Position numbers and translations under genes: made by a program | From: a virus | Length of the DNA stretch: 27,448 nucleotides | IMG/VR virus record: IMGVR_UViG_3300006752_000168 | Location: 1-27,448 of that record | Direction: 5' to 3' (one strand) | Notes under the pieces: generated by a model | Seen by the model: the letters and a program-made list of their open reading frames with translations, nothing else | Databases searched by the model: none | What the model was told of the DNA's origin: nothing | Part shown: positions 1,871 to 23,724 of the stretch, piece after piece | How the letters are laid out: the number at the start of each line of letters is the position of its first letter | How positions within the stretch are numbered: position 1 is the first letter of the stretch

Positions 1871-2143
1871 TTGCGCTTTTACATAGACACAGTTCCTATG
1901 AAATGGACACACAAAGACAAACTACGTGACCAGTGGGTTCGACGTCAGTTAGGTGATGAACTGTACACTGAACTTCAAAAGGATTATGTTGACTTAACTT
2001 ACATCGAACTACCAAGTTGGCATTTGCCTGATGAAGCATATAAAGATGTACAAGTATTTGCAGAAATAAAAGATCCCAAAATGATTATGTGGTTCAAACT
2101 AAAAGAACTTAAACCTAAATACAATTTTTCTACTTGGACGTAG
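1871..2143 (+). CDS. Hypothetical protein ending the plus-strand operon
   Basis: A 90-residue soluble protein, not recognised, rich in Trp, Lys and Asp. The start taken is TTG at 1871, directly after the TAA of the preceding gene, which suits re-initiation. An internal ATG at 1901 (giving MKWTHKDKLRDQW and 80 residues) is the alternative, and the choice is uncertain. The 3' end overlaps the convergent adenylate cyclase gene by 14 bp, leaving no room for a separate terminator. Confidence 0.6.
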   Translation: MRFYIDTVPMKWTHKDKLRDQWVRRQLGDELYTELQKDYVDLTYIELPSWHLPDEAYKDVQVFAEIKDPKMIMWFKLKELKPKYNFSTWT

Positions 2144-4172
2144 CGCGGTAAATTCCGTCCCAGTCACTAGGCTTGCCCTGTGACATGCGCTCTATCATTT
2201 TATCATAGTATGCAGCCATTTTAGGAGCAGCACGTTGATACGTTCTGTAATCTCTTATGCAAACATCCCATTTTCCGCTGTAATAGTTCTTAAGGAATGT
2301 TACATGCTCTTTAGTTTGCTTGTGTACTGCGTATATACGCAATGGCTTTTCCTTGCCCTTAACTGCAATGTTATCCAACTCCCACCAATCAAAATCATCT
2401 TGTGTAAGTGCAACAGTATCAGATCCTACAATTAACAGTACGCCATAGCTCTTTGTTTGACTTTCTAAACGTGCCGCAACACTGACCGGATCGCCCAAAC
2501 AGTCATAGCCCAGTTTGCGTTCACTACCGATATTACCAACTAGTATCTTGCCTGTGTTAACACCTGCACCTAATCCTACACGAGGAGGTAGTGGGCCTGG
2601 ATCTGTTGTGTTTAATGCTGCTTGTTCTCTGCGATCGTTAAACTCCTCACAAGCATCAATCATGTCCAATGCTGTTTGTACTGCGCTACGTGCATGATGT
2701 TCGTCATCAAGTGGCGCGCCGTGAATATGCATACTTGCATCACCAATGTACTTGATTATTGTACCATCGTTAGCCATAACTGGTTCTGTAATAGCAGTCA
2801 TGTAACTGTTGATAGTACGAGTAAAGCCTTCTACATCAGCACCATAACTTTCACCGAGCCCTGTAAAGTTACGCATGTCTGTCATCACACAACTCAGTAC
2901 TTTTTCTTCACCGCCTAGTTTAATAAGCTCTGGATTCTTTTGTAATCTTTCAACTACAGTTGGATTGACGTATGTACCAAACTGTGCTTTAATTTGTTGC
3001 TTTAATCTAAACTCACGTACAAAACGTGCAAACACTGCATGTAAGCCTACTAGTACTACTGTTATTACTGGCATAGTTGCGTCTAATAAAAACAAATAGT
3101 TCTGCCAGGCATACAATGTTCCGTAGCCTAATCCGCCAGCAAATAGAATTATACAAGCACCCACTACATAGTAAGGAGTAAATCTAGCAAGCACCACTAG
3201 CAGTAAACCTAATATTGCTGTTGCAGAAATCTCTGCAAGGAATGCCCAGAATGGACGAGAAATTTGATCTCCATCAATCATCGTTTGCAGTGTAACTGCC
3301 GCTGGTATGTAGTTTGCTTGTGGTCCTGTTGGACTAGCAATTAGTCCTCCGATGCCCTGTGCTGTAATACCGATGATAACAGTTTTGCCTTCCATCGTCC
3401 AATATTGATCTTTATCTACTACGCTTATTTCATCAAATGATTTATTCCAGCGTAGCCATATTTGTCCATTTGGATCTGTACTTACAATAGGATATCCAGG
3501 TATACGTATTTTCTCAACACCTCCCGATCCTGCTTTGATTTGATAACTAGGTGCTTCAGTTGCTAGTCTAATAACTTCTACTGCCAGACTAGGATAAGTT
3601 TCATCTCCGACACGCATGATAAGTGGGACTCTACGTACTACACCATCTATCTCTGGTGCTGTGTTTACTACACCTACACCATCAGCGTTATCGCCTAGTA
3701 TAGGAATAGGTCCTAGCATGCCGTCCCATTCAAACAAATAAGGAAGTGGATCGCCTATCTTAGCAACGCCTCGAGGCACTGCGTTTCGATTTACTTGTGT
3801 ACTGCCGCTTTGTGCAATAACAACACCATTGCCAGCAATAGTACTAGCAAGTTCCATGTCACCGCCTAGTCTATCTTCTTCACTAAAAATCATAGGTAGT
3901 ACAATAATGCCTACACCTGCTTCTCGCAAGTCCCATATAATATCTGCGAGTACGTCACGCTTCCAGGGCCACTGTCCGTACTGTGCAATGGTTGCTTCAT
4001 CAATAGTGAGTATAGCAATATCTTGTGATGGTATAGGCTCGTCGGTTTGTTGTAGTAGGTCGAATTGTTTTAGTCGCAAGGTTTGAACAACTGTGCTATT
4101 GTTATAATGCGAAAAAACTAAGAAACCAACTGTGACAAACGCTAATGCCCAGTGTGTGATAAACTTTAACAT
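2130..4172 (-). CDS. CHASE2-domain adenylate cyclase (class III)
   Basis: A 680-residue membrane enzyme predicted to make cAMP from ATP. Order: an N-terminal membrane helix (about 5-22), an extracytoplasmic CHASE2 sensor domain (about 30-305), three membrane helices (about 308-380), then a class III cyclase domain (about 420-610). Visible catalytic residues: metal-binding D432 (in TDMRNFT) and D478 (in KYIGD), and adenine-selecting K474 and D557 (in YDCLGD). R568 is present, but the usual transition-state Asn of the NxxxR motif is Ser564 (in DPVSVAARLE). The length fits intact cellular CHASE2 cyclases. TATAAATA ends 7 nt before the ATG with no Shine-Dalgarno. This looks like a host-derived signalling enzyme that could alter host cAMP during infection. 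The fold is certain; activity is inferred. Confidence 0.9.
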   Translation of the reverse strand: MLKFITHWALAFVTVGFLVFSHYNNSTVVQTLRLKQFDLLQQTDEPIPSQDIAILTIDEATIAQYGQWPWKRDVLADIIWDLREAGVGIIVLPMIFSEEDRLGGDMELASTIAGNGVVIAQSGSTQVNRNAVPRGVAKIGDPLPYLFEWDGMLGPIPILGDNADGVGVVNTAPEIDGVVRRVPLIMRVGDETYPSLAVEVIRLATEAPSYQIKAGSGGVEKIRIPGYPIVSTDPNGQIWLRWNKSFDEISVVDKDQYWTMEGKTVIIGITAQGIGGLIASPTGPQANYIPAAVTLQTMIDGDQISRPFWAFLAEISATAILGLLLVVLARFTPYYVVGACIILFAGGLGYGTLYAWQNYLFLLDATMPVITVVLVGLHAVFARFVREFRLKQQIKAQFGTYVNPTVVERLQKNPELIKLGGEEKVLSCVMTDMRNFTGLGESYGADVEGFTRTINSYMTAITEPVMANDGTIIKYIGDASMHIHGAPLDDEHHARSAVQTALDMIDACEEFNDRREQAALNTTDPGPLPPRVGLGAGVNTGKILVGNIGSERKLGYDCLGDPVSVAARLESQTKSYGVLLIVGSDTVALTQDDFDWWELDNIAVKGKEKPLRIYAVHKQTKEHVTFLKNYYSGKWDVCIRDYRTYQRAAPKMAAYYDKMIERMSQGKPSDWDGIYRATSK

Positions 4173-4178
4173 AGCAGT

Positions 4179-4415
4179 TTATTTATATATGTGTGGACCG
4201 TCTTTCATATATACAGGTTTGCAATATGCTGTAATCCTGTCACGGGGATCAACATAACTACTGTAACTATAGTTTCCGTATTGTCGAGGCACTGCTTTTG
4301 CAAAATATTGACAAGTATTAATATCGTAAAAGTATAAAGGATTGGGCTGTACTCTTCTAGAATCACCAGTACCCATAACAACAACTAGCATAAACACATG
4401 CACTAGTTCTTGCAT
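4179..4415 (-). CDS. Small exported or membrane-anchored hypothetical protein
   Basis: A 78-residue protein with a short hydrophobic N-terminus (about residues 4-15) that could be a signal peptide or anchor. A tyrosine-rich remainder follows (NTCQYFAKAVPRQYGNYSY) with two cysteines that could pair if exported. The family is not recognised. The ATG overlaps the stop of the gene at 4415-4585 (TAATG), so translation is coupled. Its 3' end holds the late promoter of the cyclase gene. Confidence 0.6.
   Translation of the reverse strand: MQELVHVFMLVVVMGTGDSRRVQPNPLYFYDINTCQYFAKAVPRQYGNYSYSSYVDPRDRITAYCKPVYMKDGPHIYK
4180..4187 (-). promoter_or_regulatory. T4-type late promoter octamer for the cyclase gene
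   Basis: A perfect TATAAATA on the minus strand, ending 7 nt before the cyclase ATG at 4172 and overlapping the upstream gene's stop codon. The intervening AACTGCT has no Shine-Dalgarno. T4 late transcripts start a few bases after the octamer, so this mRNA would have almost no leader. Confidence 0.6.
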
Positions 4416-4585
4416 TATAGTTTACTCTTTACATTTTGTATTCTTAATTTAATTGATCTTTCTTTATACTCAAACATATCTTCATCTTCGTATTCAAATT
4501 GATTAATGTTATCATCAAATACTATTGCCATGATCACAAGACCAAAAAGAAATATACATGCAGCCCAAGTAAATGCTAACAGCAT
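4415..4585 (-). CDS. 56-residue single-pass membrane protein
   Basis: ATG at 4585 to TAA at 4415-4417. An N-terminal hydrophobic helix (MLLAFTWAACIFLFGLVIMA) is followed by an acidic stretch (FDDNINQFEYEDEDMFEY) and a basic tail. The start lies one base beyond the stop of the upstream gene, and its own stop overlaps the next ATG as TAATG. This exact coupling on both sides is the main argument that it is real. The function is unknown. Confidence 0.6.
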   Translation of the reverse strand: MLLAFTWAACIFLFGLVIMAIVFDDNINQFEYEDEDMFEYKERSIKLRIQNVKSKL

Positions 4586-4586
4586 T

Positions 4587-5066
4587 TTATACCATACCTT
4601 TCATCTTTAATAAGAAATAGATAAATCCACCAAGCATACCTATAATAGCACTACACCCTATTATAATAAAAATCATATCAAAAAATGCTCTTTTGCGTTC
4701 TTCTTGTTTATATATTGTTTTTTCTCTTTGTGCTTTTATTTTTCTGCGCAGGGCTACTAACTCGTCCCAAGTTTTATATCCGTAGCGCATGTTAAGCATT
4801 ACTTGTAGTTGTTGTTCTTGTTCGGCTATTTTCTTTTCGTGCATTAACAATGACAGTGCTTCTTCTTCAACACTGCCAGCTGCAAAAAGTTTTTTAAATA
4901 TAGGAGGATTTTTTACTTGTTTTTGTCCGTGTCTAAAGTCACTAACTGCCGTATACCATTTGCCCATTTGCCCAACAGTATTTTCAAAGTCTTGCCCGGC
5001 TTCTACAAACTTCTTAACGGTATTAAAGGCAGCCGTGGCTGCAGTAATTGCGGTAATAGGATCCAT
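4587..5066 (-). CDS. Tail-anchored coiled-coil hypothetical protein
   Basis: A 159-residue protein starting at ATG 5066 (MDPITAITAATAAF); an upstream GTG at 5078 is in frame but would sit on the GAGAG ribosome site. The N-terminal half is amphipathic and the middle is a charged coiled coil (HEKKIAEQEQQLQVMLN, then RRKIKAQREKTIYKQEERKR). A C-terminal membrane helix (about 133-155, IIIGCSAIIGMLGGFIYFLL) anchors it. It has the look of small scaffold or membrane proteins in large marine phages, but I cannot name a family. A late-promoter-like octamer lies at 5090-5097. Confidence 0.65.
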   Translation of the reverse strand: MDPITAITAATAAFNTVKKFVEAGQDFENTVGQMGKWYTAVSDFRHGQKQVKNPPIFKKLFAAGSVEEEALSLLMHEKKIAEQEQQLQVMLNMRYGYKTWDELVALRRKIKAQREKTIYKQEERKRAFFDMIFIIIGCSAIIGMLGGFIYFLLKMKGMV

Positions 5067-5089
5067 TGGTATTCTCACTCTCTCAGTAT

Positions 5090-5097
5090 TATTTATT
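5090..5097 (-). promoter_or_regulatory. Late-promoter-like octamer
   Basis: AATAAATA on the minus strand, 23 nt before the ATG at 5066, with GAGAGAG between as a ribosome site. One mismatch from TATAAATA. Confidence 0.4.
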
Positions 5098-5108
5098 TGA
5101 AAAAGTAA

Positions 5109-5288
5109 TTAATACATTGGTCGTTTAATTGCACTGGTTGTTTTATTTTGTAGGATACGTCTTTTTAACTTTTGTACGCCATAATCGTTATTCGGAATAT
5201 GATCTATAGGATCCATAGCCATTACTTTTGCTATTGGTCCATTAACCATTATAGCATGTCTTTCAATAAGTTTTGGTTTTGCTTTCAT
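5109..5288 (-). CDS. Small basic hypothetical protein
   Basis: The start chosen is ATG 5288 (MKAKPKLIERHAIMVNGP), giving 59 residues; the frame is open further upstream but that part lies inside the curlin-like gene's end. The product is basic with no membrane segment. No Shine-Dalgarno is visible; a weak late-promoter-like ACTAAATA (5294-5301) ends 5 nt before the ATG, overlapping the upstream stop codon. No family is recognised. Confidence 0.5.
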   Translation of the reverse strand: MKAKPKLIERHAIMVNGPIAKVMAMDPIDHIPNNDYGVQKLKRRILQNKTTSAIKRPMY

Positions 5289-5296
5289 AAAATTAT

Positions 5297-6118
5297 TTAG
5301 TTTTGATTGACTATAATTCCACAACCGTTGCTGTTTGTGCAAGTGCCGGATAGAGTGTATGTTTGATTGGTAGAGGTTGATTGCGTTGTAGTTACAGAGT
5401 ATGCGCCGCCGCCGTTATTAAGATCAAGCGTTAAACTGTGGTTGGCATTGTCTCTCTGTGTACTATCCACTGTGTGACCATTGCCTGATAGTTCTATATT
5501 TGCTGTGTGTCCATTATTGCCACGCTGTAATAAATCTACATCATTATTACTGCCGGTTATATCAATGTCACCTATGTGCTTGCCGCCACGTTGTTGATGC
5601 GTTACGTCATTGTTGTTGCCTATAATGTCTGCACTTAGTGTATGTGCATCGCTACAACAATTAGTTGCTTGATCTGTTTGTGCTGAATGATAGATATTGT
5701 TATTGCCTACGATTGCTATATCTGCTTCGTGATCGCCGCCTTCTGTAGTATCAGTAAAGCTATCTATCTTTTTACCTTGCCAAATTTTGACATTGTTATT
5801 ATCGCCTTCAATTGATGCTATAGCATCATTGCTTTCACCAGTGCCGCCCTGGTATACGTCAACAGTATTATCATCACCATCTAGCATACCTGCAACTGTG
5901 TTGTACTGACCATCCTGATGTACGGTAACTGTATTATCGTCACCTTCGAGTCCTTTAGTCGCACCAGTAATACCAGTGACTTGGTTATTCTCGCCGTCCT
6001 GTGTAATAGTCATATTGAAGTCATCGCCTATTTGGTATACCCAAATATCGTTTGCACTGCTAGTTGTTGGATTGAGTAATGTCAATATTACTATTGCCAT
6101 GCCCCAAACGGTAGTCAT
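5297..6118 (-). CDS. Curlin-like secreted amyloid-type repeat protein (second copy)
   Basis: A 273-residue protein with a Sec signal peptide ending about TTSSA, so the mature protein begins NDIWVYQIGDDF. The rest is a series of repeats of about 20-25 residues of the form (G/D)xNNxVxxxQxG, such as DNTVTVHQDGQYNTVAG and SNNDVDLLQRGNNGHTANI, the Gln/Asn/Gly pattern of curlin (CsgA/CsgB) repeats. Its mature N-terminus matches that of the other curlin-like gene (NDIYITQVGD), so the two are paralogues. ATG 6118 is preferred over an upstream in-frame TTG (6124) because GGGAGAG is better spaced. The start lies inside the FecR-domain gene. Two Cys pairs (CC near the middle, two near the C-terminus) are unusual for curlins. 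It is probably exported through the CsgG pore encoded upstream. Confidence 0.8.
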   Translation of the reverse strand: MTTVWGMAIVILTLLNPTTSSANDIWVYQIGDDFNMTITQDGENNQVTGITGATKGLEGDDNTVTVHQDGQYNTVAGMLDGDDNTVDVYQGGTGESNDAIASIEGDNNNVKIWQGKKIDSFTDTTEGGDHEADIAIVGNNNIYHSAQTDQATNCCSDAHTLSADIIGNNNDVTHQQRGGKHIGDIDITGSNNDVDLLQRGNNGHTANIELSGNGHTVDSTQRDNANHSLTLDLNNGGGAYSVTTTQSTSTNQTYTLSGTCTNSNGCGIIVNQN

Positions 6119-7193
6119 ATTCAATGTACTCTCCCTGTTGAATATTTATTGAGTAACCGCCAGACTGATTCAATCGTAGTTCAAAGTAATTACCTTGATC
6201 GTAATCTCTACGACTCAGCACCCAGTCTGGATTTTCGTTTAATAGTGTTTTGCCTGTTGCTGGATCAAAACCATATACTTTCTTATCACGGCGCAACAAT
6301 GCTCTATTTTGCACACTTAGTTCATCTTTAAATAGTGCCATAAGTGCAAGGTTAAGTTGATCTAGCATATCATATAACATATCAGCAAGCATAAAATCTG
6401 TTTCATCAAGTGTTGTTACCCAAATACCTTCGATACTTTCTGTAAGTGCATCATAGTCGAGTCCGTCATATTCTAAAAAGTCAAGTCCAAGAAAGTCTGC
6501 AGCTTTTCGCTTACGTAAAAATTCTTCTTCCTCTTTTTCATATACTGGCGACTTTTTACGCAGAATAAGCATGTTGTTTAGCATGTCCTCTGGTAAATCT
6601 AAAAGCACAGGATTACTAGGCTTGCGGGCACTGTTTGCTACTTGTGTTGCTTGAAACGCTTGATTAAGTACAACAAAACCTGCATCTGTTTGTACTTCAA
6701 TTTCACCTACATAACATGCACCTGCTGTGTCGCAACTAGGTAGCAGTGTAATCATACTGCCGCCTGCTTCATCTACAACCATAACAAAATCAGTACCTCG
6801 CACTGCAATAGTTGCGCTGGGTGTTCTGATCTTTACATTTTGTTTAAACTTTTTTGCTATTTGTCCACTAGCATAACGTACTGTGCCTAAACTTGCTTTG
6901 AGGCTTAGTTTACCAATATCATTTGCTGGATCATATACAAACTCGTCAATAATAAGTCTGCTGTGGGGAGTAATATCTACTCTTGTTTCATCAACAAAGT
7001 CTAGGCGCATTGTAGCATTAGCAGTGACTGCTGTATCATTCATTTCAATGCCGACACCATCCGTTGCTGTGATGCTGTCATTGCCACGCTCTAGTGCGCC
7101 GCTGCCTTTGACTTCGCCGATCTCGCCAACACTTGCATATACTTGAGAAAGAGTGAGAAATAGTATAGCAATTGTTAGCAATAATTTACGCAT
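6060..7193 (-). CDS. FecR-domain exported protein with a curlin-like C-terminal tail
   Basis: A 377-residue protein with a signal peptide (cleavage about VYA|SVGEIGEV). Residues about 20-160 show a FecR domain: a VGEIGEVKGSG start, then LKASLGTVRYASGQ and VKIRTPSATIAVRGTDF, the core of that family. A charged helical middle (about 215-300) follows. The last 50 residues (LNQSGGYSINIQQG, HGNSNIDITQSN) are curlin-like half repeats. FecR domains are known as periplasmic sensor or surface-binding modules. Joined to a curlin-like tail and placed between two curlin-like genes, it may nucleate or anchor the fibre. The ATG overlaps the upstream stop (TAATG). The fusion reading is an inference from sequence pattern. 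Confidence 0.8.
   Translation of the reverse strand: MRKLLLTIAILFLTLSQVYASVGEIGEVKGSGALERGNDSITATDGVGIEMNDTAVTANATMRLDFVDETRVDITPHSRLIIDEFVYDPANDIGKLSLKASLGTVRYASGQIAKKFKQNVKIRTPSATIAVRGTDFVMVVDEAGGSMITLLPSCDTAGACYVGEIEVQTDAGFVVLNQAFQATQVANSARKPSNPVLLDLPEDMLNNMLILRKKSPVYEKEEEEFLRKRKAADFLGLDFLEYDGLDYDALTESIEGIWVTTLDETDFMLADMLYDMLDQLNLALMALFKDELSVQNRALLRRDKKVYGFDPATGKTLLNENPDWVLSRRDYDQGNYFELRLNQSGGYSINIQQGEYIEYDYRLGHGNSNIDITQSNN
6143..6150 (-). promoter_or_regulatory. Late-promoter-like octamer inside the FecR gene
   Basis: AATAAATA on the minus strand, 24 nt before the ATG at 6118, with GGGAGAG between. It could give the last curlin-like gene its own late transcript. Confidence 0.4.
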
Positions 7194-7912
7194 TAATCGC
7201 TCTGCGTAATATCAATATCTCCGCTGTCGCCTGTAGTGCTAAGTGTAACATGATTGTCCTTAATTCCACTTTGATCAACTGATACAGTATTACCTCTGCC
7301 ATGTACTGTTAGGTTCTGGGTATGACCGTGGCTGTCGCCATCGCCAGCCATATCAATATCAAATGTGTTTCCGCCACTTATAACACTACTGTTGTTCGTA
7401 ACTGTTACTGCTAATGCAGCACTTACGCCGTCAATATCTGTATCAAATACGTGTCCGTTACCTGCTACGTTAAATGATACAGTACTGCTACTTGCGTCAG
7501 CACTTTCACCGATGTCAATATCATACTGCTGACTGTCTCCAGTTGCAGTGATATTTAGTGTTACAGTTGCACAGTTGCCTGCTGCGCCGCTATCACACTT
7601 TAAGTCAACTGTGTTGCTGCTACCTGTGAATACCCATGTACCAGTATAATCTGCACCTTGTATTTGTGCTGCAATTGTGTTTGAATTACCAGTCTGGGTA
7701 ATACTAAACGTCATGTCATCTGCTACAGTTGCACCTGCTGAGCCAAGTATAACTGCTTGTCCGTCTGTACCAATGACGTTATCTGTTCCGTCTTGTACAA
7801 TATCTAAATCCAGGCTGTCACCGACCTGTGTGATATAAATGTCATTTGCAAGTGCACCTAACGTAAAACTTATTAAGCCAACTGTTAGGATTATGCTTAA
7901 ACATTTTTTCAT
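7193..7912 (-). CDS. Curlin-like secreted amyloid-type repeat protein (first copy)
   Basis: A 239-residue protein starting at ATG 7912 (MKKCLSIILT), directly after a GGAGAGAG ribosome site; the in-frame TTG at 7924 is rejected. A signal peptide ends about LGALA, leaving NDIYITQVGDSLDLDIVQDG. Repeats such as FSITQTGNSNTIAAQIQG, VHGRGNTVSVDQSG and GDIDITQSD follow, with many Thr, Ser, Asp and Gly and a Cys pair in the middle. This is a diverged curlin. Its neighbours encode the CsgG pore and CsgF, so secretion to the outer face is likely. It is larger and more acidic than E. coli CsgA. Confidence 0.8.
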   Translation of the reverse strand: MKKCLSIILTVGLISFTLGALANDIYITQVGDSLDLDIVQDGTDNVIGTDGQAVILGSAGATVADDMTFSITQTGNSNTIAAQIQGADYTGTWVFTGSSNTVDLKCDSGAAGNCATVTLNITATGDSQQYDIDIGESADASSSTVSFNVAGNGHVFDTDIDGVSAALAVTVTNNSSVISGGNTFDIDMAGDGDSHGHTQNLTVHGRGNTVSVDQSGIKDNHVTLSTTGDSGDIDITQSD

Positions 7913-7941
7913 TTCTCTCTCCAAATTTGGGTTAAACTAGT

Positions 7942-8742
7942 TTACCCTTTAAATTTCCAAAACTTCCTCTTCTCGCCTTCACATACCAATTCTATAACTG
8001 CTGCCTCAATAGCTGCTCTTACAGCATAGTTAACTGGCTCGTTGCTACTATACCCTGTCTCTGCTTCTATAAGTTTAGTACCCATATCTAAAAATTTAAA
8101 TACATCTGTACCACTTCTTACACTAGCAATTGACTTTTCTACTGCTATGCTCATTAACACTTTACCTGTGCTAACACTTACTAATCTCATAACAACAGTT
8201 ACAGTATCAACTCTGTATTCTGTTTGTACTCCAATTCCTAACCATCTTGCTCCTGCGCCTCCTACTGCAACATTTGCATCATATCCTACAATACCTCCCT
8301 CAAGTATCAATCCTGCAAAAACCATTGGCTTTAACGGAGTAGGACCGTTTGGTAATTCCTTTTCATACACTTGGCGTGTGTTACGTATTAACTGCCTTTC
8401 GCGGACTAAGTTTTCCATACCCACTCGCTCAACAACCTCGAACCAACTACGATTTCCTATCTCATGTAGTGCTTGAATAACCCATACCTCAGAACCCTGG
8501 GTGACCGCACTCGATAAGTTCGCAATATTGTCTGCTGGCTTACGTTGTCCTGTTTTGTCTGCAAAACTATAAACTGCTATAGTAATTTTCTTACCATCTA
8601 ATTCTGGCACACTTGCAAGTGCATCTTTCAAAGGTGCTTCTTGCACCTTAGGCGCTCCAGAATCCAAATAGTCACTTAAACTACCTGGTGCCGCGCATCC
8701 ACTTAATAATGTACCAATTAACAGAATAAAAATATATTGCAT
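7942..8742 (-). CDS. csgG: CsgG, outer-membrane curli secretion channel lipoprotein
   Basis: A 266-residue protein with a lipoprotein signal (LLSGC, lipidated Cys16). CsgG-family features follow: KKITIAVYSFADKTGQRKP, then SQGSEVW-like assembly region (AVTQGSEVWVIQAL), FEVVERVGMENLVRERQLIRNT, ILEGGIVGYDANVAVGGAGA and YRVDTVTVVMRLVSVSTGKV. CsgG forms a nonameric outer-membrane pore for unfolded curli subunits. The length (E. coli CsgG is 277) fits a complete protein. Its start overlaps the csgF stop (TAATG), and the curlin-like genes follow 29 bp downstream. In a phage genome this implies the virus remodels the host surface or supplies its own export pore. Confidence 0.93.
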   Translation of the reverse strand: MQYIFILLIGTLLSGCAAPGSLSDYLDSGAPKVQEAPLKDALASVPELDGKKITIAVYSFADKTGQRKPADNIANLSSAVTQGSEVWVIQALHEIGNRSWFEVVERVGMENLVRERQLIRNTRQVYEKELPNGPTPLKPMVFAGLILEGGIVGYDANVAVGGAGARWLGIGVQTEYRVDTVTVVMRLVSVSTGKVLMSIAVEKSIASVRSGTDVFKFLDMGTKLIEAETGYSSNEPVNYAVRAAIEAAVIELVCEGEKRKFWKFKG

Positions 8743-9203
8743 TAGAAGTTAAACTCTCCACTACCTGGAATCGTAATAGTTGTCGTTCCATCTTCATTAA
8801 CAATTGTTAATGTAATACTTCCGTCTGTTGTGTCTTTGATCCAGGATATAGTTGATCCTTCGATCTCTGTTGTGCCACTTGTTGCACAATCTGTGCTACA
8901 CTCTGCAAACATAGCATCCACCATTTGTTTACTCAGTGTTGCATATATTCTAGACTCAACGTTTTTAACAAACTTGTTAAGAGTTGTATTTTCTAATTCT
9001 CTTTTTATTCTAGCAGCCTCAGCTCTTGCCGCATCCTCCTTATCTGCCTTTCGGTTGTGCTGTAATTGCTCAACGCTTAAGACGTGATTACTATATCCGT
9101 TGCCGTAATGAAAAGCGGGTGATTTAAAACTCCATCCCATTTCACTTGCGGCTATTGAGGTTGGCAAAAGTAGTAAAACTACCACTAAACTAAATCTCAA
9201 CAC
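8742..9203 (-). CDS. csgF: CsgF-like curli assembly factor
   Basis: A 153-residue exported protein. GTG at 9203 is the start, with AGGAG 7 nt upstream; the signal peptide ends about SIAAS. The mature N-terminus, MGWSFKSPAFHYGNGYSNH, matches the CsgF region that inserts into the CsgG pore (aromatic-x-NPxF/GG pattern, here SPAFHYGNG). A charged helix (KADKEDAARAEAARIKRELE) and a C-terminal beta part (GSITLTIVNEDGTTTITIPG) follow, as in CsgF. CsgF links the pore to the curlin nucleator outside the cell. First gene of the operon, behind a late-type promoter. Confidence 0.85.
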   Translation of the reverse strand: MLRFSLVVVLLLLPTSIAASEMGWSFKSPAFHYGNGYSNHVLSVEQLQHNRKADKEDAARAEAARIKRELENTTLNKFVKNVESRIYATLSKQMVDAMFAECSTDCATSGTTEIEGSTISWIKDTTDGSITLTIVNEDGTTTITIPGSGEFNF

Positions 9204-12702: not shown

Positions 12703-12731
12703 ATTATAGTATAGTTAGATGGTAATGTCAA
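12703..12731 (-). promoter_or_regulatory. Consensus sigma70 promoter for the guaC operon
   Basis: On the minus strand TTGACA (12726-12731), exactly 17 bp, then TATAAT (12703-12708): a fully consensus early-type promoter about 27 bp from the guaC ATG. The -35 overlaps the end of clpS. Confidence 0.8.
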
Positions 12732-13036
12732 CTAGATTCTAATTTGACTTCCAAAGGATAACCTTGTTCTCTAGCCTGTAGCAGCACTTCAACACCTTTT
12801 TGTTCAGCAACTTCAAAAGGAAGTACTGCTACAATACCTGCTCCAGTTTCATGTATTTCTGTCATTTTAGTGCCTGCATCAGGCTCGTTATAATCAAATA
12901 CATTTACAAGACTTTCAATAACAAATTCGTATGTTGTGACATTGTCATTAAGGAAGATCACCTTATAATCCTTTGGTGGTTCAATATTAACAATTTCTCT
13001 TACTTTTTGTGAAATTTCTGTATCACTGCTACTCAT
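12728..13036 (-). CDS. clpS: ClpS, adaptor of the ClpA protease (N-degron recognin)
   Basis: A 102-residue protein. The fold signature is complete: PPKDYKVIFLNDNVTTYEFV near the start, then IHETGAGIVAVLPFEVAEQK and ARE-QGYPL-EVKLE at the end. N30, D31 and H62 match the residues that bind the amino terminus and side chain of N-degron substrates; the second Asp of the usual NDD motif is Asn32. ClpS brings proteins with Leu, Phe, Tyr or Trp at the N-terminus to ClpAP. No Clp protease gene is in the window, so it would act with the host enzyme. AGGAG precedes the ATG. It lies downstream of hsp20 with a strong hairpin between. Confidence 0.93.
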   Translation of the reverse strand: MSSSDTEISQKVREIVNIEPPKDYKVIFLNDNVTTYEFVIESLVNVFDYNEPDAGTKMTEIHETGAGIVAVLPFEVAEQKGVEVLLQAREQGYPLEVKLESS

Positions 13037-13087: not shown

Positions 13088-13531
13088 TTACTCTGATGAC
13101 TGCGTAATTGCAATCTTACGAGGCTTCTTTTCTTCTGGGATAATACGCTCTAATGAAATGTAAAGCATACCATTTTCTAGGCTTGCACCATTTACAATTA
13201 CATCTTCTGCAAGTGTAAAGTTACGTGAAAATTTGCGAGCCGCTATACCTCTATGCATCATAGTCCAGTCTGTATGATCTTCAACTTGTTCTGGATTATG
13301 TGCTACTGTTAATACTTGTTCTGCTAATTCAATATCCAGATCTTCAAGTTTTACGCCAGCAAGTGCAATTTCAATAATATACTTGTTGTCCTGTGATTGG
13401 ATATTGTATGGTGGGTAACCGCTACTCTGTGAGTTGGCTTGCATATATCGACTCATATGGTCAAACATGCGATCAAAACCTACAGCGTAGGGTGTCATTT
13501 TATTGATGTCGAGTGATGTTAATCTTGTCAT
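13088..13531 (-). CDS. Hsp20 small heat-shock protein (IbpA type)
   Basis: A 147-residue alpha-crystallin-domain holdase. It has an N-terminal arm (GFDRMFDHMSRY), then YPPYNIQSQDNKYIIEIALA, AGVKLEDLDIELAEQVLTV, GIAARKFSRNFTLAEDV, the A-x-x-ENGMLYISL signature (GASLENGMLYISLER) and the IPEEKKPRKIAI tail, as in IbpA/IbpB. It would bind unfolding proteins in the cytoplasm. AAGGAG lies 8 nt upstream of the ATG and is folded into a ROSE-like hairpin. Small heat-shock genes are common in marine T4-like phages. The next gene in the transcript is clpS. Confidence 0.93.
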   Translation of the reverse strand: MTRLTSLDINKMTPYAVGFDRMFDHMSRYMQANSQSSGYPPYNIQSQDNKYIIEIALAGVKLEDLDIELAEQVLTVAHNPEQVEDHTDWTMMHRGIAARKFSRNFTLAEDVIVNGASLENGMLYISLERIIPEEKKPRKIAITQSSE

Positions 13532-13731: not shown

Positions 13732-13956
13732 TTATTGATTATCTAATTCACGCTTTTTCTTCAACCAGCGAGCTCTGCCTGCTGCTTTAGCTCGGGCACG
13801 TTTTTCACTAGGTTTAGTGAAATGCTTTCGATCTCTTAATTCCTGTAGTACACCTTCATCTTGCAATAAACGCTTTAGTTTACGCCATGCACGATTTATA
13901 TCGTTGTTACGGACTTCTACAGTAAGACCGCGTTTTTGTCTTGGTTCTCTAGCCAT
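13732..13956 (-). CDS. rpsU: Ribosomal protein bS21
   Basis: A 74-residue, very basic protein of the bS21 family: LTVEVRNNDINRAWRKLKRL, then ELRDRKHFTKPSEKRARAK and a KAAGRARWLKKKRE tail. bS21 sits on the 30S platform near the anti-Shine-Dalgarno and affects start-site choice. Phage copies are known and may replace the host protein. The gene overlaps the end of its upstream neighbour by 40 bp and has its own perfect sigma70 promoter inside that neighbour. Its leader has only a weak ribosome site. Confidence 0.93.
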   Translation of the reverse strand: MAREPRQKRGLTVEVRNNDINRAWRKLKRLLQDEGVLQELRDRKHFTKPSEKRARAKAAGRARWLKKKRELDNQ

Positions 13957-21143: not shown

Positions 21144-21629
21144 ATGAAGTGCTACTATAAATTAGAGTGCGATAACTTATCAGAAATACAATCGCAGACT
21201 CTGGATTACTTAAAATCTAAAACAAATTTACTGGAAGTAAAGCCTTCGGAGCCGTGGAATACAACCGATACACGAGACTTCTTTAAACACTGTCCAGCAC
21301 TAATTGAATGGTGCAAAGGATTACGACTGCTTCCACACGAAGTCAGTTTTATAGTTAGTCACGATAGTGACAGTGGGTTGCCCATACACACAGATCAAGG
21401 TCCGTTAATTGCAAAAATAAATGTGCCTATACAGAATACAACTGGAAACATTACTCGCTGGCATGCAGACGATGATAGTGTTATTGCAGAAACAGGAATG
21501 GACACACCAGTTGTGTTTAACAGTAGTATACCGCATAGTGTTGAAATACATAGCAAACATACTCCAAGAATAGTAATGGCAGTAATGATTAAAAATGAAA
21601 ACAGTCTACTGGAATACCTAAAAAAATAG
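21144..21629 (+). CDS. 2OG-Fe(II) oxygenase-like protein
   Basis: A 161-residue protein. H82-x-D84 (in PIHTDQGPLIAKINVPI), H131 (in SIPHSVEIHS) and R142 (in PRIVMAVMI) form the HxD...H...R pattern of iron/2-oxoglutarate enzymes in a single double-stranded beta-helix domain; RWHADD lies between. It is short, like the phytanoyl or Asp-hydroxylase-like proteins found in marine phages. The start is set by the late octamer 5 nt upstream. The 3' end overlaps the terminator of the opposite strand. The substrate is unknown. Confidence 0.7.
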   Translation: MKCYYKLECDNLSEIQSQTLDYLKSKTNLLEVKPSEPWNTTDTRDFFKHCPALIEWCKGLRLLPHEVSFIVSHDSDSGLPIHTDQGPLIAKINVPIQNTTGNITRWHADDDSVIAETGMDTPVVFNSSIPHSVEIHSKHTPRIVMAVMIKNENSLLEYLKK

Positions 21630-21645
21630 CACCCGAAGGTGCTAT
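21620..21645 (-). terminator. Rho-independent terminator of the tmRNA-peroxiredoxin unit
   Basis: In the minus transcript AUAGCACC-UUCG-GGUGCUAU is a perfect 8-bp stem with a UUCG tetraloop, followed by seven U. It ends the transcript coming from 23087 and overlaps the stop of the plus-strand oxygenase gene. The adjoining 21646-21735 shows no gene. Confidence 0.9.
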
Positions 21646-21735: not shown

Positions 21736-22272
21736 TTAATTACTTGCTTCCAAGTATTCTATACAATTCTCTGGAGTTGATTCGATATACGGGTCGTCAT
21801 CTACGCCGTCATTATTAATGCCTGGCTCTTGCCACCATTTCTCAACTACGCCATCATTTACAATAGCCATAAAGCGCCAACTACGGTTGCCAAAGCCTAG
21901 ATGATTTTTACCAATAAGCATACCCATAAAGCGTGTCATGTTACCACTACCATCTGGAATAACTTTTACACGTTCTACACACTGTGCTTTTGCCCATGCA
22001 TTCATAACAAATGCATCGTTAACACTCATGCAATAAATTTCATCAATGCCCATGTCTTTAATCTTGTTTGCATTTTCTTCAAAGCCTGGTAGTTGGTATG
22101 TACTACATGTAGGTGTAAATGCACCTGGTAGACTAAACAATACTACGCGCTTGCCTGCAAAATAATCGTCTGTTGTTTTATCTTCCCAACGGAAAGGATT
22201 AGGTCCGTCGATGCTGTCATCACGTACCCGTGTTTTGAATGTTACTTGTGGTAACTTGAAACCTTCTATCAT
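21736..22272 (-). CDS. Peroxiredoxin (Prx5-type)
   Basis: A 178-residue thiol peroxidase. The active-site loop FSLPGAFTPTCSTYQLPGF carries peroxidatic Cys56 and Thr53. Further Prx5 features are CMSVNDAFVMNAWAKAQ, VIPDGSGNMTRFMGM and GFGNRSWRFMAIVNDG. Other cysteines (C81, C98) could resolve the sulfenic acid. It reduces hydrogen peroxide and organic peroxides in the cytoplasm, possibly with glutaredoxin as partner; a glutaredoxin gene lies at 26258. AAGGA precedes the start. Last gene of the tmRNA unit, 14 bp after the bL33-like gene. Confidence 0.93.
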   Translation of the reverse strand: MIEGFKLPQVTFKTRVRDDSIDGPNPFRWEDKTTDDYFAGKRVVLFSLPGAFTPTCSTYQLPGFEENANKIKDMGIDEIYCMSVNDAFVMNAWAKAQCVERVKVIPDGSGNMTRFMGMLIGKNHLGFGNRSWRFMAIVNDGVVEKWWQEPGINNDGVDDDPYIESTPENCIEYLEASN

Positions 22273-22286
22273 AATTTTTCCTTGTT

Positions 22287-22490
22287 CTATTTACTGTGTG
22301 GTGGCATTTTTGTTTCAACAAACCAAACATGCTCTCGCTTGCCTGGATGATATTTACGCATACGAAGTTTTTTGCCTTCGCGAATCATGCTAAGTGTTTT
22401 AGCAGCAACAAAATGATGCGATGCTGTTGCACGAGTTTCGCCTTCAGGTATCATCCATGCTTTGTTGTCTCTGTTCTTTTTACCAGCCAT
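22287..22490 (-). CDS. Ribosomal protein bL33-like
   Basis: A 67-residue basic protein. The N-terminus MAGKKNRDN and, above all, the C-terminal half KLRMRKYHPGKREHVWFVET follow the bL33 pattern (K-L-x-x-(R/K)KY-x-P-x-x-R-x-HV-x-x-x-E-x-K). It is a little longer than typical bL33, with an inserted helix in the middle (HHFVAAKTLSMIREGK), and has no zinc-binding Cys pairs. bL33 sits near the E site of the 50S subunit. The start overlaps the stop of the upstream basic protein (TAATG). The call is moderate: the pattern is short, and a general RNA-binding protein is the alternative. Confidence 0.55.
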   Translation of the reverse strand: MAGKKNRDNKAWMIPEGETRATASHHFVAAKTLSMIREGKKLRMRKYHPGKREHVWFVETKMPPHSK

Positions 22491-22768
22491 TATCTTCCAC
22501 CTGCTTTATCTGCAAAGCGCCAATCGCCCCATACTTCATTTGCGTTTACTTTAATGAATCGTTCACGTGTATTATTACCATCAGGGTTAGCAATAGTAAG
22601 CATTACTCGTTTACCTGAGCGCCATGCAGCACGTAAGTTTTGTCCTTGTTCTACACTGTCTTTATATTCTAGACGTTGTGCTTTTGAAAGGCGGTTGCCC
22701 AGACGCTTTGGATTCTGGTGTGTGGTACCCTTTGATGTTTGTGTTGCTCTTGATCTTTTCTTACCCAT
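22490..22768 (-). CDS. Basic hypothetical protein, possibly RNA-binding
   Basis: A 92-residue protein, highly basic at the N-terminus (MGKKRSRATQTSKGTTHQNP, then KRLGNRLSKAQRLEYKDS), with a small beta-like C-terminal part (KRVMLTIANPDGN, ERFIKVNANEVWGDWRF). It is not recognised. The ATG follows AGGAG-type (GGAGACC) site, is downstream of the tmRNA in the same transcript and coupled to the bL33-like gene. The composition and neighbours suggest RNA or ribosome binding. Confidence 0.65.
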   Translation of the reverse strand: MGKKRSRATQTSKGTTHQNPKRLGNRLSKAQRLEYKDSVEQGQNLRAAWRSGKRVMLTIANPDGNNTRERFIKVNANEVWGDWRFADKAGGR

Positions 22769-22805
22769 TGGGGTCTCCTATTAATTGACGCTGTGTGATG
22801 GTGTA

Positions 22806-23065
22806 TTTACACATTTTAAAGTGGCACTTCTGTTTCTAGGCAGTACCCGCCCACACATACCTTTAAACTAGGCTGCTAGTGCCATTTCTGGCTGATTATT
22901 GTCATTTGCAATTATCGTTGTTCTTGCGTTAAACCAGCTTGCGCGGTACAACTCCACTTACCTATTAACTACCTGTCGATCCTATTTCGCCCCCATAAGC
23001 ATACTCTCGTAAAAGTATATTGGTGGAGGCGCGGGGTACCGCCCCCCGGTCCAGTCTAGCGTTGA
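22806..23065 (-). ncRNA. ssrA: Circularly permuted (two-piece) tmRNA, alphaproteobacterial type
   Basis: Minus strand. The acceptor piece comes first: a T-arm with stem CGGGG/CCCCG and a 7-nt loop, then CGCCUCC-A-CCA ending at 23021. A 26-nt spacer (22995-23020) is probably cut out. The coding piece starts GGGGGCG (22994-22988), pairing with CGCCUCC over 7 bp with a G.U at pair 3, the tmRNA/AlaRS identity. AGGAUCGACAGG follows, as in tmRNA D-loops. The tag frame (22871-22909) reads ANDNNQPEMALAA, then UAG (22868-22870). Helices TGGCACT/AGTGCCA and TTTAAAG/CTTTAAA close the tag region. The ends are approximate. It rescues stalled ribosomes and marks peptides for Clp proteases. No terminator before the downstream gene, so the RNA is processed. 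Confidence 0.9.
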
Positions 23066-23086
23066 GTTTGTTTCAACATTGTAGTA

Positions 23087-23117
23087 TATTTATAGCATAG
23101 CATATTATTGATGTCAA
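23087..23117 (-). promoter_or_regulatory. Combined early/late promoter of the tmRNA unit
   Basis: Minus strand TTGACA (23112-23117), 17 bp, TATAAA (23089-23094), embedded in a perfect late octamer TATAAATA (23087-23094). Both host sigma70 and a phage late sigma factor could use it, giving expression through infection. Confidence 0.7.
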
Positions 23118-23124
23118 ATAAATA
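23117..23124 (+). promoter_or_regulatory. Late-promoter-like octamer
   Basis: AATAAATA ends 4 nt (ATTT) before ATG 23129; no Shine-Dalgarno. It abuts the divergent tmRNA promoter. Confidence 0.45.
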
Positions 23125-23128
23125 ATTT

Positions 23129-23515
23129 ATGTTCAAACGTATCAGAAAATGGATTACTATAGACAATTGCGTTGACCTAGCAGTTGATATAATTCTTATT
23201 ATTTGGGAAGTAGTAACAAGTCCTGTTCTAATTGTTATGCGACTGATAAGACACTTTATAGGCGAATGGTTTACTGAAAAAATCAAAGCATGTGTGCGTT
23301 GGATAGTACATTGGTTTGCTCGTAAACGTGCAGAGAGACTTGAAAAAGGACAAGGAATATTCCGCACCTATTGGTATCTAATACTACCAAGTCCTTTTAT
23401 CATTATTGCAATTTGGATGATTACAATGATTAGCATTGGTATAGGACAAGGCTATGATGAACTTAAAACAACTAAGCCAGACAGCACATTGTTACAAATT
23501 TTTGAAGATAACTAG
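23129..23515 (+). CDS. Membrane protein, unknown function
   Basis: A 128-residue protein with a hydrophobic helix at about 14-38 (DLAVDIILIIWEVVTSPVLI), an amphipathic basic middle (FARKRAERLEKGQG) and a second membrane helix at about 82-105 (LILPSPFIIIAIWMITMISI), then an acidic tail. Two-helix topology with a positively charged loop is compatible with a holin or a membrane remodelling protein, but no family is recognised. Its start lies 4 nt past a late-type octamer. The end overlaps the convergent gene by 4 bp. Confidence 0.65.
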   Translation: MFKRIRKWITIDNCVDLAVDIILIIWEVVTSPVLIVMRLIRHFIGEWFTEKIKACVRWIVHWFARKRAERLEKGQGIFRTYWYLILPSPFIIIAIWMITMISIGIGQGYDELKTTKPDSTLLQIFEDN

Positions 23516-23724
23516 TCTTCAGTTGAATCTAATTTTTCAAGTTTCTTTTTCCAGGCTTCTTCAAAGCCTGTTTCATGGTAGCAAAATTCATGATTGCCCC
23601 ATACACGTTTAAAATAATCATCGTACATACGTACCATGTCCTCAGTTGACCATCCTTCTGGAACTAGTCTTCCTTTAACACACCACATCATATGATTATA
23701 TTTCTTTTCTTCGTCGAGTGTCAT
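23512..23724 (-). CDS. Small hypothetical protein
   Basis: A 70-residue soluble protein, mostly helical, with many aromatic and charged residues (EDMVRMYDDYFKRVWGNHEF) and Cys/His pairs too few for a clear zinc site. GGAGAC precedes the ATG, which overlaps the stop of the upstream gene (TAATG). It is the last gene of a five-gene coupled run from the PAAR-like gene. No function is recognised. Confidence 0.6.
   Translation of the reverse strand: MTLDEEKKYNHMMWCVKGRLVPEGWSTEDMVRMYDDYFKRVWGNHEFCYHETGFEEAWKKKLEKLDSTED

Follow-up and report, generated by a model that had tools for sequence, protein, structure and literature searches.

A phage-borne permuted tmRNA gene with an apparently composite promoter and an empty spacer

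Permuted tmRNA genes have already been described in phages: 53 two-piece genes were found in a phage database, 50 of them from aquatic phages, and the type case is that of Melnitz, which infects a gammaproteobacterial OM43 host and whose ssrA was sited by its authors just downstream of an early promoter (PMC9004378). The gene described here lies in a linear virus fragment of 27,448 bases (IMG/VR record IMGVR_UViG_3300006752_000168), the whole of which is referred to as the window. It raises the questions of whether such a gene is intact, at which phase of infection it would be transcribed and whether the spacer between its two pieces is simply discarded.

Anatomy and surroundings of the tmRNA gene

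The minus strand of the window carries a complete circularly permuted tmRNA gene of the alpha type at 22818-23121. In cmscan the Rfam alpha_tmRNA model (RF01849), the search proposed with the initial annotation, passed its gathering threshold of 50 bits at 23121-22818 (108.3 bits, E 5.5e-29), as did the tmRNA_permuted model (RF04321; threshold 47 bits) at 23083-22868 (111.4 bits, E 3e-21). ARAGORN reported a permuted tmRNA at 23113-22777 with the tag ANDNNQPEMALAA, its coding part being 205-246 of the gene. The identification as a permuted alphaproteobacterial-type tmRNA, originally made from the sequence alone, is borne out by all three. Sequence, ARAGORN and cmscan agree on the order acceptor half, spacer, coding half, and the proposal that the acceptor piece lies upstream of the coding piece holds on the minus strand. 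The interval first given, 22806-23065, stops short of the promoter (23087-23117) and of the 5′ portion of the acceptor piece, and no strand was named with it; right on the anatomy of the RNA, the annotation missed the biology of the promoter and the spacer. The features of the locus are as follows.

23512..23724, minus strand: small gene upstream of the tmRNA, homologue of a tmRNA-spacer protein (locus L079)
23112..23117, minus strand: −35 box TTGACA (6/6), 17 nt upstream of the −10/late box; from the sequence
23087..23094, minus strand: TATAAATA, putative T4-type late promoter box, doubling as a sigma70 −10 (TATAAA)
23021..23083, minus strand: acceptor piece, transcribed first; RF04321 and RF01849 alignments
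22995..23020, minus strand: intervening spacer (ITS), 26 nt, empty; sequence and fold
22818..22994, minus strand: coding piece beginning GGGGGCGAAAUAGGAUCGAC; RF01849
22868..22909, minus strand: tag reading frame ANDNNQPEMALAA and UAG; ARAGORN and RF04321
22490..22768, minus strand: first ORF after the tmRNA, encoding a 92-residue basic protein of phrog_23239 (unknown)
22287..22490, minus strand: bL33-like protein, 67 residues; profile of 20 relatives
21736..22272, minus strand: peroxiredoxin, phrog_2281 (E 6.9e-62; Redoxin 8.1e-23)
21626..21645, minus strand: predicted intrinsic terminator (8-bp stem and T6) after the peroxiredoxin

The acceptor piece comprises a 5′ helix strand, the TψC arm, the 3′ half of the acceptor stem and the ACCA end, with CGCCUCC-ACCA read at 23031-23021 on the minus strand. 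The mature 5′ end, GGGGGCG, is at 22994-22988, and the limits originally assigned to the 26-nt spacer, 22995-23020, are exact. The seven acceptor pairs are intact with G·U at position 3, as had been noted, and together with the CCA the G3·U70 pair makes this an alanine acceptor. The tag codons run from 22909 to 22871 and are closed by a UAG at 22870-22868; a resume codon and a tag frame ending in -AA are present according to ARAGORN. In 122 distinct phage genes, picked regardless of pairing, acceptor pairs 5-7 covary (GCG/CGC, CTG/CAG, GTG/CAC, TCG/CGA, CCG/CGG, ATG/CAT and ACG/CGT). The stem is not due to chance, because 121 of these genes pair at the three positions despite the alternative combinations. 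The constancy of CTCC/GGGG among the relatives is in part owing to the choice of search pattern. Phage genes score about 108 bits against the covariance model, compared with about 160-310 for most cellular genes, because their downstream domain is shorter. In a pseudoknot-free model the folding energy of the joined tRNA-like domain was no better than that of shuffles (z −0.8).

The view that this tmRNA is phage-encoded, also put forward at the outset, is supported by the virus record, by the phage gene families, by a curli/CHASE2 block ordered as in Melnitz and by gp23 and late-sigma homologues in long relatives. ORFs of the window match phage families of peroxiredoxin, HSP20, S21, a ClpS-like adaptor, a GMP reductase/IMPDH-like protein and endolysin. 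The gp23 capsid protein and the late sigma homologue, the latter with 33% identity to the gp55 type, are encoded by four long contigs that hold relatives of the bL33-like protein; the window itself is a fragment. The bL33-like and peroxiredoxin neighbours named initially are both real by profile searches. As a single sequence the bL33-like protein falls under the NCBIfam cut-off, but a profile built from 20 relatives hits bL33m/bL33 chains (lowest E 1.4e-5, for bL33m). It has no match in the phages collection. Of its 46 viral relatives, two lie on contigs above 300 kb; among the 46 records a permuted tmRNA is present in 15 and ClpS in 11. The predicted terminator would close a unit of tmRNA, 92-residue protein, bL33-like protein and peroxiredoxin, although such a prediction is weak alone (2 found, 1.6 expected by shuffling).

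Elsewhere in the window a same-strand row encodes a ClpS adaptor (12728-13036), HSP20 (13088-13531) and ribosomal protein S21 (13732-13956), which with the tmRNA and the bL33-like gene places several parts of translation and proteolysis in one phage. A curli secretion block at 2130-9203 consists of CsgF, CsgG, a curlin-like protein, FecR, a second curlin-like protein and a CHASE2-adenylate cyclase.

The promoter

The sequence upstream of the acceptor piece, TTGACA-17-TATAAATA, is apparently a composite promoter, in which a sigma70 −35 box and a T4-type late box stand at the canonical distance from each other. It is called composite because of the TTGACA at 17 nt; T4 late promoters, to our knowledge, have no −35. 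About 215 phage permuted tmRNAs were compared overall. The discovery set, obtained with a DNA pattern from the D-loop region, held 119 distinct genes including earlier loci, and a disjoint held-out set found by another pattern held 96; each pattern gave at least 120 viral contigs, and the fractions, taken among the matches listed, are not prevalences.

Among the matches listed, TATAAATA was found upstream of 71 of 116 discovery genes, in nearly all of them 62-71 nt ahead of the acceptor half, against a mean of 2 and a maximum of 7 in base-shuffled upstream stretches. It was likewise present 55-75 nt upstream of 59 of the 94 held-out genes, again among the matches listed. At that place it occurred in none of 40 cellular ssrA genes, those of this class having TATATT-like boxes instead. 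A match of at least 5/6 to TTGACA accompanied 55 of the 71 discovery sites (51 at 17 nt) and 47 of the 59 held-out sites (46 at 17 nt). On the same contigs a TTGACA-like box at 17 nt was seen at 59 of 72 tmRNA sites but only 6 of 162 other TATAAATA sites, with about 2% at random positions. Conserved across 122 non-redundant sites are TTGACA, TATAAATA itself and, one base ahead of it, the TG of an extended −10, whereas the 17-nt stretch between is variable.

The box also marks other genes. It stands at ORF starts in 133 of 299 non-tmRNA sites on the pattern-found viral contigs (9-30% for words of the same composition), in 18 of 24 sites in Melnitz and in all four other sites in the window, where about 7% would be expected for each. 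Judged by these positions, in many of these phages the 8-mer genuinely marks promoters. In the long relatives G012 and G035 it is not enriched genome-wide (14 against 13, and 13 against 17, for the reversed pattern) and is nearly absent from the structural regions, which weakens the case for late use in the jumbo branch. The best reading of the promoter is that a host-type −35 was retained while the −10 turned into a late box, which would permit both forms of polymerase to initiate. TATAAA would also simply be a good −10, making early use alone possible. No earlier description of a composite tmRNA promoter was found in the open-access literature; subscription papers may hold one.

The spacer and predicted spacer-borne genes

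The spacer of the window folds as an 8-bp hairpin stacked beneath the acceptor stem in the precursor (−18.8 kcal/mol, z −4.2). Spacers of other phage genes measure 5-59 nt in some and 60-499 nt in others, and their ends pair, extending the acceptor stem by a mean of 10 bp compared with 3 when shuffled. An ATG ORF covering at least 70% of the spacer was found in 41 of 78 long spacers of the discovery set (dinucleotide shuffles: mean 6.7, maximum 13) and in 20 of 54 in the held-out set (mean 6.2, maximum 12), the 70% threshold being one of three viewed on the discovery set and then left unchanged. All sets together gave 63 such ORFs among the matches listed, 48 of which follow a Shine-Dalgarno-like site, as do 82 of 368 other ATGs. 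At 60% coverage there are 69 ORFs, including twelve families with at least two members. With one pair taken per family, differences at codon positions 1, 2 and 3 number 88, 44 and 168, and dN was below dS in every pair for which both could be computed, by a narrow margin in one. On the tree of mature RNAs, well-supported branches show at least 16 switches in the presence of a spacer ORF. These repeated gains or losses, the Shine-Dalgarno sites and the low dN/dS point to small protein genes in the spacers of 63 relatives. No earlier report of spacer genes in phage tmRNA was found in the open-access literature, though subscription papers may hold one; genes are not looked for within a tmRNA interval, which is probably why they have stayed hidden. 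Among cellular long spacers no spacer-filling ORF was seen in the few parsed. Group I introns were considered for the long spacers and rejected, there being no Rfam match at gathering thresholds.

Several of the families also exist as ordinary genes beside the tmRNA. The spacer protein of the L166 type corresponds to the Melnitz gene that directly precedes ssrA (67%), and in the window the product of 23512-23724 resembles the L079 spacer protein (35% over 60 residues, E 1e-9 for the pair). The Melnitz spacer (L073, 1591-1732) contains an unannotated ORF (MFKWLSKTRLVVITRDYF...) with relatives in eight other spacers.

The nearest mature RNA to that of the window in a tree of 256 RNAs is L097 (94% identity, tag ANDNHQPEMALAA). 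Its contig is syntenic, aligning with the window on both flanks and over both pieces at 93% and 91%, but the L097 spacer has 117 nt and encodes MDEVILWEFRKRCVEYICINNYSIRHARLIMMGAK after UUGGAG, in place of the 26 nt of the window; the encoded protein belongs to a family of six. Going by this alignment, the two loci are a natural empty/filled spacer pair.

The spacer ORFs end at a UGA just before the mature end (18), at the UAG of GAAAUAGGAUC (16), deeper inside the tmRNA (12) or upstream (17). We somewhat favour the idea that the spacer is a cargo slot for small protein genes, in which one transcript under an early/late promoter would serve as both mRNA and tmRNA precursor, RNase P would generate a non-stop message to be rescued by the tmRNA, and the window would be an empty slot beside the filled one of L097. 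In 28 of the 63 ORFs the stop lies inside the mature tmRNA, so that maturation by RNase P would remove it; such self-rescue would amount to a built-in feedback.

Descent, function and known systems

Tags stay ANDN...LAA in most of the 158 read. A scan of 84,980 genomes for ANDNxxPEMxLAA returned only two Hyphomonadaceae-type ANDNFAPEMRLAA genes and one misbinned phage contig, and ANDNNQPEMALAA itself was found in no cellular genome. The tag could thus differ from that of the host, as had been surmised. The accompanying suggestion that the tmRNA points to the host lineage is unsafe: Melnitz infects a gammaproteobacterium and yet has an alpha-type tmRNA (PMC9004378), so that the host cannot be read from the type of RNA. 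In the tree of 256 mature RNAs (157 columns; weak in detail) the phage genes separate from 40 cellular genes with two label changes, and because they form essentially one group, what the gene follows is the ancestry of the phage and not its present host. The window tag has its EMALAA end in common with order-level cellular tags, ANDNEMALAA, which as a host clue is suggestive only.

Assigning a host by MAG binning was rejected, since the 'Rickettsiales' contig L064 is phage (SleB, SNase and RNR genes). This misbinned contig (PALK01000009.1, from a GTDB 'Rickettsiales' MAG) carries a phage-type tmRNA with a 266-nt spacer and a 75-residue ORF. Another genome of that order, G053, has two extra phage-type tmRNAs (L389 and L390) besides its own ssrA, either phage contigs in the bin or prophage. 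Unannotated permuted tmRNAs were also seen in Caulobacter phage CcrBL9 (L075, 1443-1875), with an unusual 21-residue tag, VNAANDNDVVVSTMTSVKLAA, by ARAGORN, and in Phaeobacter phage MD18 (L076).

It is probable that the window derives from a marine phage of the T4 superfamily whose permuted tmRNA gene is functional, being transcribed early and late into an RNA that is processed by the host and used with host SmpB in ribosome rescue. The host sigma70 polymerase would start early from TTGACA-17-TATAAA and the phage late polymerase, with a gp55-type sigma, from TATAAATA; as both can presumably start, the RNA would be made throughout infection. In the folded precursor the 26-nt spacer would form a hairpin upon the acceptor stem and would be excised by host RNase P and the enzymes of 3′ processing, leaving two RNAs joined by base pairing, as is established for Caulobacter-type genes. 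Host alanyl-tRNA synthetase would charge the RNA through G3·U70 and host SmpB would bring it to stalled ribosomes, where ANDNNQPEMALAA would be added and its -LAA end read by Clp proteases. Host SmpB is presumably used because none was found in 7 long viral relatives; its absence from the window says little, since a 27-kb record is a fragment. The benefit would be the recycling of ribosomes and the clearing of unfinished proteins during mRNA degradation. In related phages, L097 included, the precursor would also be an mRNA because its spacer carries a small protein gene, the window representing the empty state. Control of ribosome rescue by the virus, as initially proposed, is plausible.

An alternative account would have the tmRNA expressed early only, from a host-type sigma70 promoter in which TATAAATA is a −10 variant and the late-box match is incidental. 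TTGACA-17 and the extended TG are indeed features of a strong sigma70 promoter, the Melnitz authors placed ssrA just downstream of an early promoter (PMC9004378), and the jumbo relatives make no wide use of the box. This account is doubtful, however, given that cellular ssrA genes have TATATT-like boxes and TATAAATA in 0 of 40, that all eight late-box bases are kept in the 71 of 116 and 59 of 94 listed phage genes, and that other ORF starts in these phages are marked by the 8-mer without a −35.

Other readings question rescue itself. The phage tmRNA might be a decoy or regulator that competes with host tmRNA and blocks or redirects tagging; in E. coli, host tmRNA is inhibited by the tmRNA of mycobacteriophage DS6A, which lacks a tag (PMC11915505), the window tag is absent from the cellular genomes scanned and the phage ClpS adaptor could steer Clp proteases. 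Unlike in DS6A, though, the tag frame is complete and its degron-like end is kept, and a decoy is unlikely. It is very improbable that the gene plays no part in infection and is a decaying host capture or a relic of recombination. Phage scores do lie below those of cellular genes, and integration often takes place at host ssrA, so that phages come to carry fragments of it; but here all functional elements are intact with compensatory changes in the acceptor stem, the promoter box was changed and then kept, most tags read are ANDN...LAA and each pattern found at least 120 viral contigs.

Working rescue with a composite promoter would give a testable answer to the timing of phage ssrA transcription, namely both phases, as against early only as proposed for Melnitz. 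An RNA spacer supposedly discarded can be coding space, and the isolate Melnitz too has its unannotated spacer ORF. Nested mRNA and tmRNA precursors would be gene overlap of a new kind, through which the maturation of the RNA might be tied to ribosome rescue in an autoregulatory way.

The closest known system is SsrA of Melnitz (MZ577095-98; PMC9004378), likewise a permuted alpha-type tmRNA of a marine phage in the T4 superfamily. Its genome has the same CsgF-CsgG-curlin-FecR-curlin-CHASE2 cyclase block and, as seen in this analysis, the same TTGACA-17-TATAAATA promoter. The tag is ANDNYVPVDYALAA in Melnitz and ANDNNQPEMALAA in the window, the Melnitz spacer has 142 nt and takes in 41 codons of an ORF instead of being an empty 26 nt, and the window tmRNA adjoins the bL33-like gene while Melnitz ssrA has other neighbours. 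A glutamine riboswitch as in Melnitz was absent from 22700-23250 even at E ≤ 5. With the Caulobacter-type two-piece tmRNA (RF01849) the window shares gene order, spacer, G3·U70 acceptor and an ANDN...AA tag, but its downstream domain is shorter, its promoter box is different and the spacers of its phage relatives may hold genes. T4 late promoters (gp55) have the same eight-base box, which in these phages often lies just upstream of ORF starts, and differ in the consensus −35 found here at 17 nt. DS6A too encodes a tmRNA, but without a tag frame (PMC11915505), whereas that of the window is complete.
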